This document shows, one piece after another, positions 559-6,952 of a DNA stretch of 64,000 bases. Source of the DNA: Dongia deserti (GTDB taxonomy: Bacteria > Pseudomonadota > Alphaproteobacteria > Dongiales > Dongiaceae); contig NZ_QORW01000001.1 in NCBI RefSeq assembly GCF_003574735.1, forward strand, positions 372,001 to 436,000, in the 5' to 3' direction. The first letter of the stretch is position 1, and each line of letters begins with the position of its first letter. The notes under the pieces were generated by a model. It was given only the letters and a program-made list of their open reading frames with translations, searched no databases and had not been told where the DNA came from. A program made the translations under genes and the position numbers.

Positions 559-1557
559 ATGAACGGAATATTGACCCACGAGCAATTGCTGCAGGCTGTC
601 GGCCAGGTGGCGGAAGCGGCCCTGCCCTGCTGGGGCCTGGGCGGTGCAACGCTCGAGATGATCAATCATTCCGAAAACACGACCTATCTCGTCACGCCGG
701 CCAATGGTGCACGGCCGGTCATCCTGCGTGTGCATCGCGAAGGCTATCACAGCGTCAATGGCATCAAGAGCGAGCTCGCCTGGATGCATGCCTTGCAAGC
801 GGAAGCGAACGTGCTGACGCCGCAGGCGATCCCCGGCCTCGATGGCGAGGAGATCCAGAGCGTCAGCCATCGCGCTTTGCCGCGCCCACGCAATTGCGTG
901 CTGTTCCACCTGATCGACGGGCAGGAGCCCGCCCAGGAAAACCTGATCGAACCCTTCAAGCAGCTGGGCGAGGTGACGGCACGTACGCACATCCATTCGA
1001 TGGGCTGGAAGCGGCCGCCCTATTTCGAGCGCCTTAGCTGGGACTTCGAGCACTCGCTCGGCCAGCAGGCGAACTGGGGGCCGTGGGAAGAAGGCCCGGA
1101 TATGACTCCCGAGCACCGATCGATCCTGCAGCGCCTGGTCGACACGCTCGAGCGGCGGCTAAACAAGTTCGGCAAGGCACCGGATCGGTTCGGCCTGATC
1201 CATGCGGATTTCCGTCTCGCCAATCTCCTCATCCACAACGGCAATACACGCGTCATCGACTTCGACGATTGCGGCATCGGCTGGTTCCTCTATGACGCCG
1301 GCACCGCCGTCAGCTTCTTCGAGCACAAGCCCGAAGTGCCGGAGCTGATGGAAGCGTGGAAGGAAGGCTATCGCCGCGTCCGCCCGCTCTCCAAGGAAGA
1401 AGAGGACGAGATCTGGACCTTCATCCTGCTCAGGCGGATGTTGCTGCTCGCCTGGATGGGATCGCATCACGAGACCGACCTCGCCAAGCAGGAAGGGCCA
1501 GCCTATTGCGTCGGCTCCTGCGAGATGGCCGAGAAATATCTGAGCAGATACGGCTGA
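559..1557 (+). CDS. APH-fold small-molecule kinase of the BMC operon (probable amino-alcohol kinase)
   Basis: This 332-aa protein has the aminoglycoside/choline kinase fold. The catalytic loop is HADFRLANLL with Asp217 and Asn222, and the metal-binding motif is VIDFDD at about 232-237. Frame-compatible starts exist upstream (487), but ATG 559 lies a few bases after AGGGG and gives the family-like N-terminus. Eleven bases separate its stop from the downstream PLP enzyme, preceded by a GAGGAG ribosome site. In mycobacterial RMM microcompartments the equivalent gene encodes (S)-1-amino-2-propanol kinase, which phosphorylates the hydroxyl before elimination. I infer the same chemistry here (1-amino-2-propanol or a similar amino alcohol). 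A generic resistance role is unlikely given the context. Confidence 0.8.
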   Translation: MNGILTHEQLLQAVGQVAEAALPCWGLGGATLEMINHSENTTYLVTPANGARPVILRVHREGYHSVNGIKSELAWMHALQAEANVLTPQAIPGLDGEEIQSVSHRALPRPRNCVLFHLIDGQEPAQENLIEPFKQLGEVTARTHIHSMGWKRPPYFERLSWDFEHSLGQQANWGPWEEGPDMTPEHRSILQRLVDTLERRLNKFGKAPDRFGLIHADFRLANLLIHNGNTRVIDFDDCGIGWFLYDAGTAVSFFEHKPEVPELMEAWKEGYRRVRPLSKEEEDEIWTFILLRRMLLLAWMGSHHETDLAKQEGPAYCVGSCEMAEKYLSRYG

Positions 1558-1568
1558 GGAGTCGCCCG

Positions 1569-2876
1569 ATGGCCAATCCCGACAACGCCGAGATGCTCGA
1601 GGCCCAGAGCCCCGAGAAGAAGGAGTTCATCCGGAAATCCATCGAGTTCTGGAATCCGGGCAAGACCCAGTTCTGGCAGGATGCCGGCGTCGACTTGGTG
1701 ATCGACCGGCGCGAGGGGTATTTCCTCCATGATATGGATGGCCGCCGCCTGATCGACGTGCATCTCAACGGCGGCACCTACAATATCGGCCATCGCCATC
1801 CGGAGCTGGTCGAGGTGCTGAACCGCGGCACGCAGCGGTTCGACATGGGCAACCATCACTTTCCGGCGCTGGGCCGTACTGCGCTCGCCGAGAAGCTGGC
1901 CAAGAGCTGCGGTGGCGACCTGCACTACACGATCTATGGTTCAGGCGGCGGCGAGGCGATCGACATTGCCATCAAGACCGCGCGTCATGCCAAGCAGAAG
2001 AAAAAGATCGTCTCCATCATCAAGGCCTATCACGGCCACACGGGTTTGGCGGTCGCAGCCGGCGCCGACCGTTTCTCCAAGCTGTTCCTCTCGGAGAAGC
2101 CGGACGAGTTCATCAATGTGCCGTTCAACGATCTCAACGCGATGGAAGACGCGCTGAAGGCCAAGGACGTCGCGGCCGTCATCATGGAGACGATTCCCGC
2201 GACCTACGGCTTCCCCATGCCGCTGCCCGGCTACCTCACCGAAGTGAAAAAACTGTGCGAGCGCTACGACGCGCTCTATATCGCCGACGAAGTGCAGACC
2301 GGCCTGATGCGCACCGGCGAGATGTGGGGCTATCAGCGCTATGGCATCCAGCCCGACATCGTCGTCATTGGCAAGGGCATCTCCGGCGGCATGTATCCGA
2401 TCGCCTGCGTGGTGGTGCGCGAACCCTATGCCGGCTGGCTCAAGCAGGATGGGTTCGGACACATGGCGACCATGGGCGGCGCGGAGCTCGGCTGCCTGGT
2501 TGCCATGAAGACGCTGGAGATCCTCGAGCGGCCGCAGATGAAGCCGATGGTCAACTACATCTCCGAGCTGATGGCGAGCGGCCTAGCCGAGATCATGAAG
2601 CTCTATTCCGACTTCTTCGTCGGCATCCGGCAGTGCGGCGTCGTCCTGGGGCTCGAGTTCGACTACCCCGAAGGGGCCAAGCCAGTGATGAAGCACCTCT
2701 ACGAGAACGGCGTGTGGGCGATCTTCTCCACCCTCGATCCGCGCGTGCTGCAGTTCAAGCCCGGCGTGCTGATGACCGCACCGCTCTGCGAGGAATTGCT
2801 GGAGCGCGTGGAGCGTTCGATTGGCCTGGCGCGTGCCGAATGCAAGGGATCGGGAAAGCGCCGCTACGCCGCATGA
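1569..2876 (+). CDS. Class III PLP enzyme, probable amino-alcohol-phosphate phospho-lyase
   Basis: This 435-aa fold-type I PLP enzyme of the class III aminotransferase family has Asp240 in IADEVQTG to contact the pyridine nitrogen. The Schiff-base lysine is Lys269 in IGKGISGG. The start at 1569 follows the kinase by 11 bp and has a good ribosome site (GAGGAG); frame-open sequence further upstream lies inside the kinase gene. In RMM loci this partner is an (S)-1-amino-2-propanol O-phosphate phospho-lyase that releases propionaldehyde, ammonia and phosphate. Ethanolamine-phosphate phospho-lyases belong to the same family, so the substrate could also be phosphoethanolamine (giving acetaldehyde). 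The lyase role is inferred from the kinase and aldehyde dehydrogenase neighbours. Confidence 0.8.
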   Translation: MANPDNAEMLEAQSPEKKEFIRKSIEFWNPGKTQFWQDAGVDLVIDRREGYFLHDMDGRRLIDVHLNGGTYNIGHRHPELVEVLNRGTQRFDMGNHHFPALGRTALAEKLAKSCGGDLHYTIYGSGGGEAIDIAIKTARHAKQKKKIVSIIKAYHGHTGLAVAAGADRFSKLFLSEKPDEFINVPFNDLNAMEDALKAKDVAAVIMETIPATYGFPMPLPGYLTEVKKLCERYDALYIADEVQTGLMRTGEMWGYQRYGIQPDIVVIGKGISGGMYPIACVVVREPYAGWLKQDGFGHMATMGGAELGCLVAMKTLEILERPQMKPMVNYISELMASGLAEIMKLYSDFFVGIRQCGVVLGLEFDYPEGAKPVMKHLYENGVWAIFSTLDPRVLQFKPGVLMTAPLCEELLERVERSIGLARAECKGSGKRRYAA

Positions 2877-2886
2877 GAGAGCCACG

Positions 2887-4482
2887 ATGAACGCGATCGT
2901 CGAAGAGCTGCTGGCGGGCGAAAAGCGCCAGACCGGCACTGCCGACATGATGCTGCAGCTGGCGGAGTGGGCCGCCGCTTCCTATGCGCACTATGACCGT
3001 GCGGCGGTCGATCGCATCACCAAGGCCGCAGCGGATGCGGCATTCGCCTTGGCGGGTCCGCTGGCCGAGGCGGCGGTCAAGGAAACCGGCTTCGGCGTCG
3101 CGGAGCACAAGAAGATCAAGAACGAGATCTGCTCCCGCGGCATCTACGAGGCCTACAAGAGCGAGGATTTCTGTTCCAAGCGCGTGATCGCTGAGCAGAA
3201 GATCGTGGAAGTGCCGCGCGCCGCTGGTATCGTCTTTGCCCTCACCCCCTCCACCAATCCGGTCTGCACGGTCTTCTTCAAGATCCTGCTGGCGTTGATG
3301 ACGCGCAATGCCATCATCGTCTCGCCCCATCCCTATGCGAAGAAGTGCTCGGCTGAAGGGGTTCTGGCGATGGCCAAGGCGGCCGAGCAGGCCGGCGCGC
3401 CGGCTGGAATCATCCAGATCATCACAGAACCGAACCTGCCGCTTATCAACTACGTCATGCAGTCGCCGCGGGTGAGTGTGATCCTCGCGACCGGCGGGAC
3501 GCCGATGGTGCGGGCAGCCTATTCCTCCGGCAATCCCGCGATCGGCGTCGGACCCGGCAACGCGCCGGCCTTTGTCGATGCCAGTGCTGACTTGAATGTC
3601 GCTGCCAAGCGCATCATCGGCTCCAAGAGCTTCGACAACTCGATCCTGTGCACCAACGAGAGCGTGGTGGTGGCGGAGGAGGCCATCGCGGACAAGCTGT
3701 TGCAGGCGATGGCGAAGACCGGCGCCTATGTGGCAAAGCCCGATGAGGTGGACAACATCCGCGAGTATCTCTTCGGCCTCGGTTCCTTCAATGTCGAGGT
3801 GGTCGGGAAGAGTGCAACCGAGATCGCATCGCGGATCGGCATCAAGGTGCCGTCTTCGACCAAGGTCATCCTCACGCCGATCGATCGCGTCGGGATCGAT
3901 GAAGCGCTGTCCAAGGAGAAACTCTGTCCCGTGCTGGGCTTCGTGCGCGTGCCGCATGTCCATTCGGGCATCTCGACGTCACGTGCGTTGATCCGCATGT
4001 CAGGTGCCGGTCATTCCGCTGCGATCCACAGCAGCAATCCCGCCAATATCCTCCGCTTTGCCAGCGCCGTGAAAGCCCTGCGCGTCGTGGTCAATGCGCC
4101 CTGCAGCCAAGGCGCCGCGGGTTTCGGAACCCACCTTGCGCCCTCCTTCACAATCGGCACCGGCTACTTCGGCCGCTCGTCGGTGGGCGAAAACATTGGC
4201 CCCAAGCATCTCGTGAACTGGACGCGCATCGCCTATAGCGACGAAGCGAACGAGGCGTTCGGCGACTTCTCCGGCCTTGAGACCTGGAACGGCCAGGCGC
4301 CGTTGCCGATCGGTCGCGAAGCACCGATGACCATCGGCCGCCTTCAGGAAGGGGCGGAGCGGGCCGACCAATCGCTGTTCGCGCAAGTCGGTGGCGACGC
4401 GGTCGCCGACGAGATCGCCCTGATGCGGGAGGAGATCCGCCGCATCGTGCTCGAAGAGCTGCGCGCGGCTTTCAGGAAGTGA
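2887..4482 (+). CDS. BMC aldehyde dehydrogenase, CoA-acylating type, with C-terminal encapsulation-like helix
   Basis: This 531-aa protein belongs to the aldehyde dehydrogenase superfamily, EutE/PduP-like branch. The catalytic Cys255 lies in DNSILCTNESVV, preceded by GVGPGNAPAFVD. The start chosen is ATG 2887, 10 bp after the phospho-lyase stop; the upstream in-frame extension overlaps that gene. After the catalytic domain, residues about 509-531 (LMREEIRRIVLEELRAAFRK) form a strongly amphipathic helix behind a linker, as expected of an encapsulation peptide that takes cargo into a shell. It should convert the aldehyde from the phospho-lyase to acyl-CoA with NAD+. The stop is followed after 2 bp by the first BMC-T gene. 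Confidence 0.88.
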   Translation: MNAIVEELLAGEKRQTGTADMMLQLAEWAAASYAHYDRAAVDRITKAAADAAFALAGPLAEAAVKETGFGVAEHKKIKNEICSRGIYEAYKSEDFCSKRVIAEQKIVEVPRAAGIVFALTPSTNPVCTVFFKILLALMTRNAIIVSPHPYAKKCSAEGVLAMAKAAEQAGAPAGIIQIITEPNLPLINYVMQSPRVSVILATGGTPMVRAAYSSGNPAIGVGPGNAPAFVDASADLNVAAKRIIGSKSFDNSILCTNESVVVAEEAIADKLLQAMAKTGAYVAKPDEVDNIREYLFGLGSFNVEVVGKSATEIASRIGIKVPSSTKVILTPIDRVGIDEALSKEKLCPVLGFVRVPHVHSGISTSRALIRMSGAGHSAAIHSSNPANILRFASAVKALRVVVNAPCSQGAAGFGTHLAPSFTIGTGYFGRSSVGENIGPKHLVNWTRIAYSDEANEAFGDFSGLETWNGQAPLPIGREAPMTIGRLQEGAERADQSLFAQVGGDAVADEIALMREEIRRIVLEELRAAFRK

Positions 4483-4484
4483 TC

Positions 4485-5102
4485 ATGGCCGAGTTGCGCT
4501 CCTTCATCTTCATCGACCAGCTGCAACCGCAGACTCTGTGCTACATGGCGACGTGGATGCGCGGAAGGCTGCCGCGCACCAACATGGCGGCGCAGATCAT
4601 CGAGGTGGCGCCGGGTCTCGACATCGAGCCTCTGACCAACGTCGCGCTCAAATACGCCGAGGTCGGCGGCGGCATCCTGGTGGTCGAGCGGCAGTTCGGC
4701 TATCTCGAGTTCCATTCGCGCTCGACCGGGCTGGTCAAGGCAGCAGCTCAGGCCGTCCTCGAATCGCTGGAAGCCGACGAGAGCCAGGCGACGCGGCCGC
4801 AGATTCTCGCCTCCAAGATCGTCACGCGCGTCGATCCGGTGCACGCCTTCCTCATCAACCGGAACAAGCTCGGCTCCATGATCCTCCCCGGCGAATCATT
4901 GTTCGTGCTGGAGATGCAGCCGGCAAGCTACGCCATCCTTGCCGCCAACGAGGCGGAGAAGTATGCCGATATCAAGATCATCGATTATCGCATGGTCGGT
5001 GCCACGGGCCGCGTCTATCTCTCCGGCGAAGAATCATCCGTGCGCAGTGCCGCAGCAGCAGCAGAGGAAGCGCTGCAGAACCTGTCGAGGCTGGCGGCAT
5101 GA
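4485..5102 (+). CDS. BMC-T shell protein (tandem BMC domain) 1
   Basis: This 205-aa protein has two consecutive BMC folds, residues about 1-100 and 105-200, so it should form trimers that look like pseudo-hexagonal shell tiles. Typical BMC segments include AAQIIEVAPGLDIEPLTN, GILVVERQFGYLEFH in the first half and ILAANEAEKY and YRMVGATGRVYLSG in the second. ATG 4485 is preferred over GTG 4479 because AGGA at 4474-4477 is correctly spaced. Its stop overlaps the next start (ATGA), indicating translational coupling. RMM shells of mycobacteria contain two such tandem proteins and this operon also has two. Pore properties cannot be read from the sequence. Confidence 0.9.
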   Translation: MAELRSFIFIDQLQPQTLCYMATWMRGRLPRTNMAAQIIEVAPGLDIEPLTNVALKYAEVGGGILVVERQFGYLEFHSRSTGLVKAAAQAVLESLEADESQATRPQILASKIVTRVDPVHAFLINRNKLGSMILPGESLFVLEMQPASYAILAANEAEKYADIKIIDYRMVGATGRVYLSGEESSVRSAAAAAEEALQNLSRLAA

Positions 5103-5545
5103 TCGACAAGAGCCTCCTGCGCGAGCTGGTCAAGTCGGTGATCGCCGAAGAGGTTGCGGCGATCCGAAAGCCCTCGACCAACGCTGCTCCGCCGCTTTCG
5201 GAAGAACGCGTCACCATCGCAAGCGATGCCGATCTGGTCGCCTTTGCCCGCCGCGTCTTGTCGCTCGCAAGCGATCCCGCCAAAGCGAAGGAGATCGCGG
5301 CGGGGCGCTATCCCTTCCGGCTGGCTCGCCCTGCGACGCAACCTGCTGCAACGCCCGCTCTTCAAGCGACTGCCCCGGTCGCTCAGTCTCACCGCATCGA
5401 CAGCGGTGTTGTCACGGAATCCTCCCTCAACAAACTGCCTCGCGGTCTCTCGCGTCTGGTGCTGGGGCCGGGCGTCACCGTCACGCCCCTGGCCAAGGAT
5501 CGCGCGCGCAGCCTCGGCCTTACGTTCGAAAGGATGAAGCCATGA
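5099..5545 (+). CDS. BMC-associated protein with N-terminal encapsulation-like helix; function unknown
   Basis: This 148-aa protein starts in an ATGA overlap with the BMC-T gene and ends in an ATGA overlap with BMC-P, so it is firmly part of the shell operon. Residues 1-24 (MIDKSLLRELVKSVIAEEVA...) form an amphipathic helix resembling the PduD/PduP-type targeting helices. Residues about 37-75 form a second block with SDADLVAFARRVLSLA and GRYPFRLA. A Pro/Ala/Gln-rich linker follows. The C-terminal block (about 105-148) contains VLGPGVTVTPLAKDRARSLG, which recalls the TP-A-R/D motif I remember near the N-termini of EutT/EutQ-like proteins. No catalytic motif is recognisable. I infer a lumen scaffold or adaptor linking cargo and shell. 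Confidence 0.75.
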   Translation: MIDKSLLRELVKSVIAEEVAAIRKPSTNAAPPLSEERVTIASDADLVAFARRVLSLASDPAKAKEIAAGRYPFRLARPATQPAATPALQATAPVAQSHRIDSGVVTESSLNKLPRGLSRLVLGPGVTVTPLAKDRARSLGLTFERMKP

Positions 5546-5802
5546 TACGCGGTCACGTCATCGGCCGGTACTGGGCCACCAAGCGGATCGATCACATCCC
5601 GTCCGGCGCCTTCCTGGAGGTGGAGACCGAGGGCGGAAGCCGCATCATGGCGCTGGATGTTCTGGGTTGCGGCGAAGGGGAAGAGGTCATGGTGGTGACC
5701 GGCTCCACCGCGGCCGCCTGGCTGGGCGGCGGCAAGATCCCGATCGACGCGCTCATCATCGGCTCGCTGGATCAGCCCAGCGGCGCCAACAAGAAAAAAT
5801 AA
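5542..5802 (+). CDS. BMC-P shell vertex protein (EutN/CcmL family)
   Basis: This 86-aa protein has the single-domain pentamer fold that caps shell vertices. Characteristic features are the N-terminal GHVIGRYWATKR, the strand ALDVLGCGEGEEVMVVTG and SAAAWLGGG-like turn (STAAAWLGGGKIPIDALIIG). The length is normal for the family. The ATG at 5542 overlaps the preceding stop by the ATGA arrangement. Its presence argues for a closed icosahedral-type shell rather than flat sheets or tubes. BMC-H follows 30 bp downstream. Confidence 0.92.
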   Translation: MIRGHVIGRYWATKRIDHIPSGAFLEVETEGGSRIMALDVLGCGEGEEVMVVTGSTAAAWLGGGKIPIDALIIGSLDQPSGANKKK

Positions 5803-5832: not shown

Positions 5833-6114
5833 ATGTCCAACGCAATCGGCATGATCGAAACCAAGGGCTTCGTCGCGGCATTGGCGGCTGCCGACGCCAT
5901 GGTCAAGGCGGCGAACGTCACCATCGTCGGCCGCGAGCAGGTCGGCGACGGCCTGGTCGCCGTCATCATCAACGGCGATGTCGGCGCGGTGAAGGCCGCG
6001 ACCGAGGCCGGGTCGGAAGCGGCGAACAGCGTCGGCACGCTGGTCTCGGTCCACGTGATCCCGCGCCCGCACGCCGATCTTGCCAAGCACTTCACGACGG
6101 TGCCGGGGAAGTAA
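5833..6114 (+). CDS. BMC-H hexameric shell protein
   Basis: This 93-aa protein is a canonical single-domain BMC protein. It has the starting strand [20 protein letters not shown], the [24 protein letters not shown] core and the C-terminal [10 protein letters not shown]. It should form the main hexagonal facets with a central pore near the GDVG/VG turns. A GGAGAG ribosome site lies just upstream of ATG 5833. It is the only BMC-H gene in the window. After its stop a 200-bp C-rich repeat separates it from the second BMC-T gene. Confidence 0.95.
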
Positions 6115-6316: not shown

Positions 6317-6952
6317 ATGACTGAGCTTCGTGTCTACCTCCCGATCGAATCGCTGGCGCGGCAGTTCGCGGCCTATATGGCGACGCCCATGCGTGCGCGT
6401 GGCTATCCTCCGATGGAGGGCGAGCACAGCCTGATCATCGAAGTGGCGCCGGCCCTCGCGATCCATCGCATCTGCGATCTGGCGCTGAAGAGCGCGCCGG
6501 ACATGGAGCCGGGTCTACTCTATGTCGAGCGGCAATACGGCCTGATGGAGCTGCATCATTCCGATCTCGACTCGCTTCGCTCGGCGGGGCAGGCAATCCT
6601 GAGCGGCATCGGCCGCAAGCCAACGGATCAGTTTAAGCCGCGCACCTTGTTCGCCGACATCATCGAGAACGTGGCGGACCAGCACGCCATCATCCTCAAC
6701 CGCACGCGCGAAGCGTCCATGCTGCTGCCGGGCAAATCGCTGCTGGTCTACGAGCTGGAGCCGGCGCTGTTCGCCACCGTCGCAGCGAACGAAGCGGAGA
6801 AGGCGGCACCCGGAATCACTTTGGTCGACCTGCAGATGATCGGCGCCAGCGGCCGCCTTTTCATTGCCGGCAGCACGCACGATTGCGAACTGGCGCGCGA
6901 CCGCATCGACGAGGTTCTGGGCGCGATTGAAGGGCGCCAATCCGGACGCTGA
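6317..6952 (+). CDS. BMC-T shell protein (tandem BMC domain) 2
   Basis: This 211-aa protein is a second tandem BMC protein, clearly related to the one at 4485 but divergent. The first domain contains EHSLIIEVAPALAIHRICDL and LLYVERQYGLMELHHSD. The second has LLPGKSLLVYELEPALFATV and VDLQMIGASGRLFIAG. A GGAG ribosome site stands 7 bases before ATG 6317. The C-rich repeat upstream may set its expression apart from the other shell genes. Two tandem shell proteins with different pores would fit separate routes for substrate and cofactors, by analogy with the two BMC-T proteins of mycobacterial RMM shells. Confidence 0.9.
   Translation: MTELRVYLPIESLARQFAAYMATPMRARGYPPMEGEHSLIIEVAPALAIHRICDLALKSAPDMEPGLLYVERQYGLMELHHSDLDSLRSAGQAILSGIGRKPTDQFKPRTLFADIIENVADQHAIILNRTREASMLLPGKSLLVYELEPALFATVAANEAEKAAPGITLVDLQMIGASGRLFIAGSTHDCELARDRIDEVLGAIEGRQSGR

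Follow-up and report, generated by a model that had tools for sequence, protein, structure and literature searches.

The coupling of cargo to shell is a central unsolved step in metabolosome assembly, and two proteins, EutQ and PduM, have been studied in this context. EutQ requires residues 9-41 (helices H1/H2) for shell association and residues 62-99 (H3/H4) for cargo, such that a protein without 62-99 stays with the shells and one without H1/H2 goes with the cargo (PMC12487888). EutQ interacts with EutM and EutL and is found inside Eut BMCs, and its Gram-positive counterpart lacks the first three helices, which Salmonella assembly needs (PMC12487888). Removal of the first 100 residues of EutQ led to the loss of EutM in pull-downs, and EutM K53 and D57, on what is presumed to be its cytosolic face, matter for EutQ binding (PMC4827028).

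Loss of PduM leaves core and shell partly separated (PMC9132943, PMC12108088), with some of the resulting MCPs exceeding 200 nm (PMC12108088). PduM residues 1-23 send GFP to the Pdu core and are required for PduM function (PMC12108088), and in the absence of PduB1-37, PduM tracked the cargo and not the shell (PMC9132943). A 2025 paper reported no known homology of PduM outside Pdu MCPs and left its mechanism open (PMC12108088). In the main text of the BMC catalogue from 2021, neither PduM nor hypothetical RMM genes appear (PMC8217296). RMM loci, which take their name from Mycobacterium and Rhodococcus jostii, have been tied to amino-2-propanol (PMC4207490).

Here, we analyzed a 64,000-nucleotide window of alphaproteobacterial DNA with a microcompartment locus of the RMM (amino-alcohol) type, and we focused on a gene lying between two shell genes and encoding a 148-residue protein, hereafter X148. 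We propose, with a probability of roughly 0.7, that X148 serves the RMM metabolosome as a bivalent linker of the PduM type, with its helix in the cargo core and its C-terminal module on the shell.

Results

The locus and the X148 gene

BMC-T, BMC-P and BMC-H identities were assigned via Pfam and NCBIfam. The features of the locus and of X148 are as follows.

559..1557 (+), APH-family kinase (PF01636, 1.3e-27)
1566..2876 (+), class III aminotransferase / PLP lyase (PF00202, 2e-73)
2887..4482 (+), CoA-acylating aldehyde dehydrogenase, cargo (NCBIfam acylating AldDH matches)
4423..4479 (+), conserved encapsulation peptide at the C-terminus of the aldehyde dehydrogenase, MREEIRRIVLEELRAAFRK (comparison across loci)
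4485..5102 (+), BMC-T (CcmP-like) shell protein (NF053796, 3e-62)
5099..5102 (+), ATGA overlap of the BMC-T stop codon and the X148 start (window sequence; same overlap in R. jostii RHA1)
5099..5545 (+), X148, putative 148-aa RMM adaptor protein (ORF and family alignment)
5108..5167 (+), predicted N-terminal encapsulation-type helix of X148, residues 4-23, LLRELVKSVIAEEVAAIRK (AF2 helix, HMM, dN)
5204..5326 (+), conserved middle block of residues 36-76 (SDADL...GRYPFRL), with a beta-alpha-alpha-beta prediction and restricted to RMM-type relatives
5327..5386 (+), variable linker, residues 77-96, low-confidence; site of a SnoaL_2 insertion in G185, G279 and G357
5387..5542 (+), TPLA module at the C-terminus (residues 97-148), a predicted docking domain for the shell (isolated AF2 model, HMM, hhalign)
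5542..5545 (+), ATGA overlap of the X148 end and the BMC-P start codon (window sequence; same overlap in RHA1)
5542..5802 (+), BMC-P vertex protein (PF03319, 4.5e-16)
5833..6114 (+), BMC-H shell hexamer (PF00936, 5e-28)
6317..6952 (+), second BMC-T (CcmP-like) shell protein, BMC-T2 (NF053796, 1.4e-52)

A single cluster thus combines the core content of an RMM-type locus: APH kinase, class III aminotransferase, acylating aldehyde dehydrogenase, CcmP-like BMC-T, BMC-H and BMC-P. The alignment places K54 and E58 of the window BMC-H at the positions of EutM K53 and D57, the lysine and an acidic residue being kept. A first-pass annotation of this DNA had described X148 as locked by ATGA overlaps, and the four-base overlaps with BMC-T upstream and BMC-P downstream are indeed both present. 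Its statement that the protein has no enzyme motif also holds, since zero Pfam families match X148 at E ≤ 5.

X148 is truly coding, because its differences from the L003 copy fall mostly in third codon positions (28/14/73 by position) and dN is 0.14 against a dS of 1.22. Divergence is unevenly spread over the protein, in which freely varying linkers separate three parts under constraint: an N-terminal helix (dN 0.10, dS 1.08), a block of 40 residues and a C-terminal domain of ~50 residues (dN 0.07). The linkers display dN values of 0.58 and 0.45 in the same comparison. The middle block, noted at first sight only as conserved-looking, has a dN of 0.05. The AlphaFold model of whole X148 is of low confidence (pTM 0.31).

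Relatives and gene order

X148 is a real, conserved gene. A first scan of species genomes gave five X148 loci, two of them actinobacterial, and profile searches added ten alphaproteobacterial members and seven in Mycobacteriales; the family now counts 24 sequences from two phyla, all of which align end to end. The absence of homologues from other BMC loci had been named beforehand as refuting the reading of X148 as a scaffold between cargo and shell; the profile searches found them, always in the same slot, flanked by BMC-T and BMC-P in 22 loci as well as in RHA1 and the window, with members from both Alphaproteobacteria and Actinomycetota. According to tblastn maps, the order aldehyde dehydrogenase, BMC-T, X148, BMC-P, BMC-H, BMC-T2 is kept in nearly all loci, and most also have the aminotransferase upstream. 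L048, in which X148 was detected by profile, has an arrangement of its own; this locus also carries a second BMC-H/BMC-T set. R. jostii RHA1, a founding RMM strain, encodes X148 twice, annotated as 'hypothetical protein', with both four-base overlaps the same as in the window. The shell cassette of RHA1 (BMC-T, X148, BMC-P, BMC-H) is duplicated at L086:8372-13861, with identical protein accessions.

Among 385 alphaproteobacterial genomes, X148 occurs in 11, all of which (11/11) have BMC genes. Four other BMC-positive genomes are without X148: two (G143 and G251) are marginal single matches, and two (G131 and G316) are clear BMC loci with tandem BMC-H. G131 is a confirmed alpha-carboxysome, with RuBisCO, CsoS2 and CsoSCA, and G316 looks like a carboxysome by the same layout. 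BMC genes were found in 15 of 250 Mycobacteriales, with X148 in 8/15 and a malate dehydrogenase form of its C-terminal module in 3/15. The remaining genomes comprise one Pdu locus with a PduM-like protein, one alpha-carboxysome (G471) and two with another BMC type (G570 and G586), in which the module HMM had no match. A 961-aa ORF of G455 that reached E 6e-5 was discarded as an X148 relative, its surrounding genes being unrelated to the X148 locus.

The C-terminal module and its homologues

The first-pass annotation had likened the C-terminal motif to the start of EutT and EutQ. Profile searches and hhalign bear out this resemblance, yet the closest relatives, PduM and TIGR02536, had been missed; they carry the same domain at the same end as X148 and beside BMC-P. 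The profile comparisons make the X148 C-module homologous to domains of four families: it recurs C-terminally in PduM and TIGR02536 and N-terminally in EutQ and EutT. It also occurs as an N-terminal tag on a malate dehydrogenase of other BMC loci.

When 13 X148 members were scanned against NCBIfam, sub-threshold matches to TIGR02536 were obtained for 12 (best 2.5e-5) and to PduM (TIGR04493) for six (best 1.8e-5), mainly over the last ~45 residues. For direct comparison, sequences of PduM, TIGR02536, EutQ and EutT were taken from annotated records. Among 1640 six-frame ORFs, an HMM built from X148 C-modules only retrieved, first after the RMM copies, the Listeria TIGR02536 (2.6e-8), along with PduM of E. 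coli (9e-5), Salmonella (8e-4) and Klebsiella (2.7e-3) and, at 0.039, the C. difficile TIGR02536. Once PduM and TIGR02536 were included in the HMM, the next matches among 3763 ORFs were EutT and EutQ N-termini (1.5e-4, 8e-4, 3e-3, 5e-3 and 0.035), and the first unrelated match was HisC, at 0.07. Local hhalign comparisons of the X148 module, whose E-values are pairwise and not database values, gave 5.7e-6 for PduM, 1.9e-6 for TIGR02536, 3.4e-6 for EutQ and 2.1e-5 for EutT, in one register throughout, and reversed templates gave at least 0.2 (0.21 for PduM). The EutQ segment aligned to the module spans residues 1-47, i.e. H1/H2. A 17-sequence module profile run on 299 Pseudomonadota genomes had no matches below 1e-3 other than X148 in two genomes and EutQ/EutT pairs in three eut loci.

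Predicted alone for six sequences with AlphaFold, the module forms a beta-alpha-beta-alpha-beta unit (pLDDT 90.7, pTM 0.67). Sequence searches of the PDB with the family and module profiles found no credible relative, Foldseek returned nothing at E ≤ 0.001 for the whole model or the module, and a viral library search gave no match. Recurrent, non-significant Foldseek matches of the module to the N-terminal domain of Cas1 (best E 0.07, TM 0.72) are kept as a fold resemblance only. An E3_binding (peripheral-subunit-binding) identity, considered from a TPxAR motif, was rejected, as matches were weak and the predicted fold is alpha/beta; the E3_binding domain has a helical fold.

PduM (TIGR04493 / PF15953) resembles X148 in having the module at its extreme C-terminus, in lacking an enzyme motif and in the position of its gene directly before BMC-P; its signal-type helix at the N-terminus may have a counterpart in the predicted X148 helix, but its middle region and BMC type differ. 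TIGR02536, an ethanolamine utilisation protein of Gram-positive eut loci, likewise carries the C-terminal module and has a gene directly before BMC-P; it begins with a helix of encapsulation type and has a larger middle domain. X148 is not a member of either family because it falls below their curated cut-offs, the best-scoring family members reaching 24.7 of 50 bits for TIGR04493 (the PF15953 cut-off being 27 bits, with no Pfam match for the window protein) and 24 of 152.6 bits for TIGR02536; it probably works like them.

EutQ shares a homologous module and, on the linker reading, a two-ended shell-cargo logic with X148, but in a different order: the module comes first, then EP-binding helices and then a cupin domain (PF06249 / NF012001), for which X148 has no Pfam match. 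In EutT, the homologous segment of ~47 residues is attached to an adenosyltransferase, and the cited literature reports no role for it. The carboxysome linkers CcmN and CsoS2 join cargo to shell (PMC12487888) and are likened to X148 by role; the module was not found in the alpha-carboxysome loci examined.

The N-terminal helix and cargo peptides

The first-pass annotation had also given X148 an amphipathic N-terminal helix like cargo-targeting peptides. Residues 4-23 are helical in the AlphaFold model, with modest confidence, and the top outside match of the family HMM of this helix is the PduD N-terminal signal sequence, although weakly so (E 0.022-0.05; 0.05 among 3763 ORFs). Amphipathicity is moderate: the best 18-mer ranks in the top 8% among 18-mers of the other proteins of the locus, but the one at residues 5-22 does not exceed shuffles of the same composition.

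The aldehyde dehydrogenase ends in a conserved helix of the LREEIRRIVLEEL type in each locus read, and the aminotransferases of RHA1 and L048 carry a C-terminal helix of this same LREEIRRIVLEEL type; in the window aminotransferase, no encapsulation helix was seen. By eye, the X148 helix resembles the dehydrogenase tail. Shared ancestry is left unclaimed because the X148 helix HMM misses this tail and the tail HMM gives X148 no better than E 0.084.

Discussion

A dedicated scaffold between cargo and shell, as first suggested from the sequence, appears to be the best-supported reading: homologues occur in BMC loci, in the same slot, and the two ends of X148 correspond to elements of PduM and EutQ with published roles. 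We propose a two-ended clip because the X148 C-module is homologous to EutQ H1/H2, the EutM pull-down needs the EutQ N-terminus, and the window BMC-H keeps K54/E58. The N-terminal helix of X148 would join the bundle of encapsulation peptides in the cargo core, which the aldehyde dehydrogenase would enter through its own C-terminal helix. The C-terminal domain of ~50 residues would bind the lattice of the shell, a BMC-H or BMC-T tile being the likeliest site, as has been reported for EutQ with EutM/EutL. The flexible linker, together with the middle block peculiar to RMM relatives, would keep the two ends apart. Translational coupling between two shell proteins would make X148 available while facets and vertices form. 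We infer the shell and cargo contacts of X148, as well as the role of the middle block.

Several points speak against the linker reading, chief among them that PduM followed cargo and not shell in the absence of PduB1-37 (PMC9132943). Others are the weak match of the helix to signal sequences (E 0.05) and its moderate amphipathicity, and the departures from the related proteins, X148 lacking the middle domain seen in PduM and TIGR02536 and carrying last the module that stands first in EutQ. In addition, EutQ binding has been argued for the cytosolic, not the luminal, face of EutM (PMC4827028). This last point could instead suggest that X148 works on the outer face as an assembly hub that seeds or spaces compartments and does not link cargo; K53/D57 of EutM have their counterparts in the window BMC-H, but EutQ resides inside Eut BMCs (PMC12487888) and X148 has a predicted encapsulation-type helix, and we regard such a hub as very improbable.

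The behavior of PduM without PduB1-37, co-localized with cargo and not shell (PMC9132943), would also suit an organizer internal to the core, in which both ends of X148 bind cargo, the C-module docks enzymes devoid of an encapsulation peptide and a shell protein makes the contact to the shell. The window aminotransferase, with no encapsulation helix seen where those of RHA1 and L048 have a C-terminal one, would be a candidate client. EutQ argues the other way, as it follows cargo without H1/H2 and shell without H3/H4 (PMC12487888), and so does the presence of the module on enzymes (EutT and malate dehydrogenase), which is more simply read as an address to the shell or lattice; we consider a core-internal organizer unlikely. 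Because PduM stayed with cargo in that background, the C-module need not bind the shell in every family; its binding could be weak in isolation or directed at another partner in Pdu.

That the X148, PduM and TIGR02536 genes each directly precede BMC-P, and that some PduM-less MCPs are larger than 200 nm (PMC12108088), raises the idea of a vertex or size-control factor, with the module acting on BMC-P to aid shell closure and the helix only retaining X148 in the compartment. This is improbable, given that the module-bearing eutQ and eutT do not precede eutN in E. coli, that the malate dehydrogenase form follows BMC-T and that EutQ interacts with EutM and EutL (PMC12487888).

If X148 is a cargo-shell linker, an unannotated gene that is present in each RMM locus examined gains a likely function. 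We further favor, if narrowly, the view that several kinds of metabolosome, but not the alpha-carboxysomes examined, use the C-module (on X148, PduM, TIGR02536, EutQ, EutT and malate dehydrogenase) as a portable 'shell address', a domain so far undescribed. Such a domain, common to RMM, Pdu and Eut proteins, would link two gaps, explaining both how PduM acts and how Gram-positive Eut compartments assemble without the EutQ N-terminus. A shell-side domain in several BMC proteins would suggest that these organelles are assembled on a common principle, and a fusion tag as small as ~50 residues would be expected to reach shells.

Module-bearing proteins in other BMC loci

In three Gram-positive loci, EutQ (L058:11303-12004, L091:15989-16432 and L092:17926-18393) starts with a helix resembling encapsulation peptides and is devoid of the module, which in the same loci is carried by TIGR02536, a distribution complementary to that of Gram-negative EutQ. 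The N-terminus of a hypothetical protein in the cut locus of Enterococcus raffinosus (L090:11896-12462), missed by the HMM, reads like the EutT module (YITEQEL...RLTPGAKQFL).

The X148 relatives of G185, G279 and G357 have a SnoaL_2 domain (2.5e-19) inserted in the linker (loci L039:7317-8180, L040 and L041). An RMM-type aminotransferase was not found in these three loci, and their substrate may therefore differ. A flavoprotein domain (4.9e-9) lies between an N-terminal encapsulation-type helix and the C-terminal module in a protein of G503 retrieved by the module HMM, whose gene adjoins BMC-P; this architecture is that of the PduM-like protein of an actinobacterial pdu locus (L101:12335-13180, minus strand). 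In G426, G455 and G469 (Mycobacteriales), a malate dehydrogenase bears the module at its N-terminus, followed by a Pro/Ala-rich linker, and its gene adjoins BMC-T (L096:13508-14806, L097:8711-10057 and L098:8883-10268); this slot directly after BMC-T is that of X148 in RMM loci.
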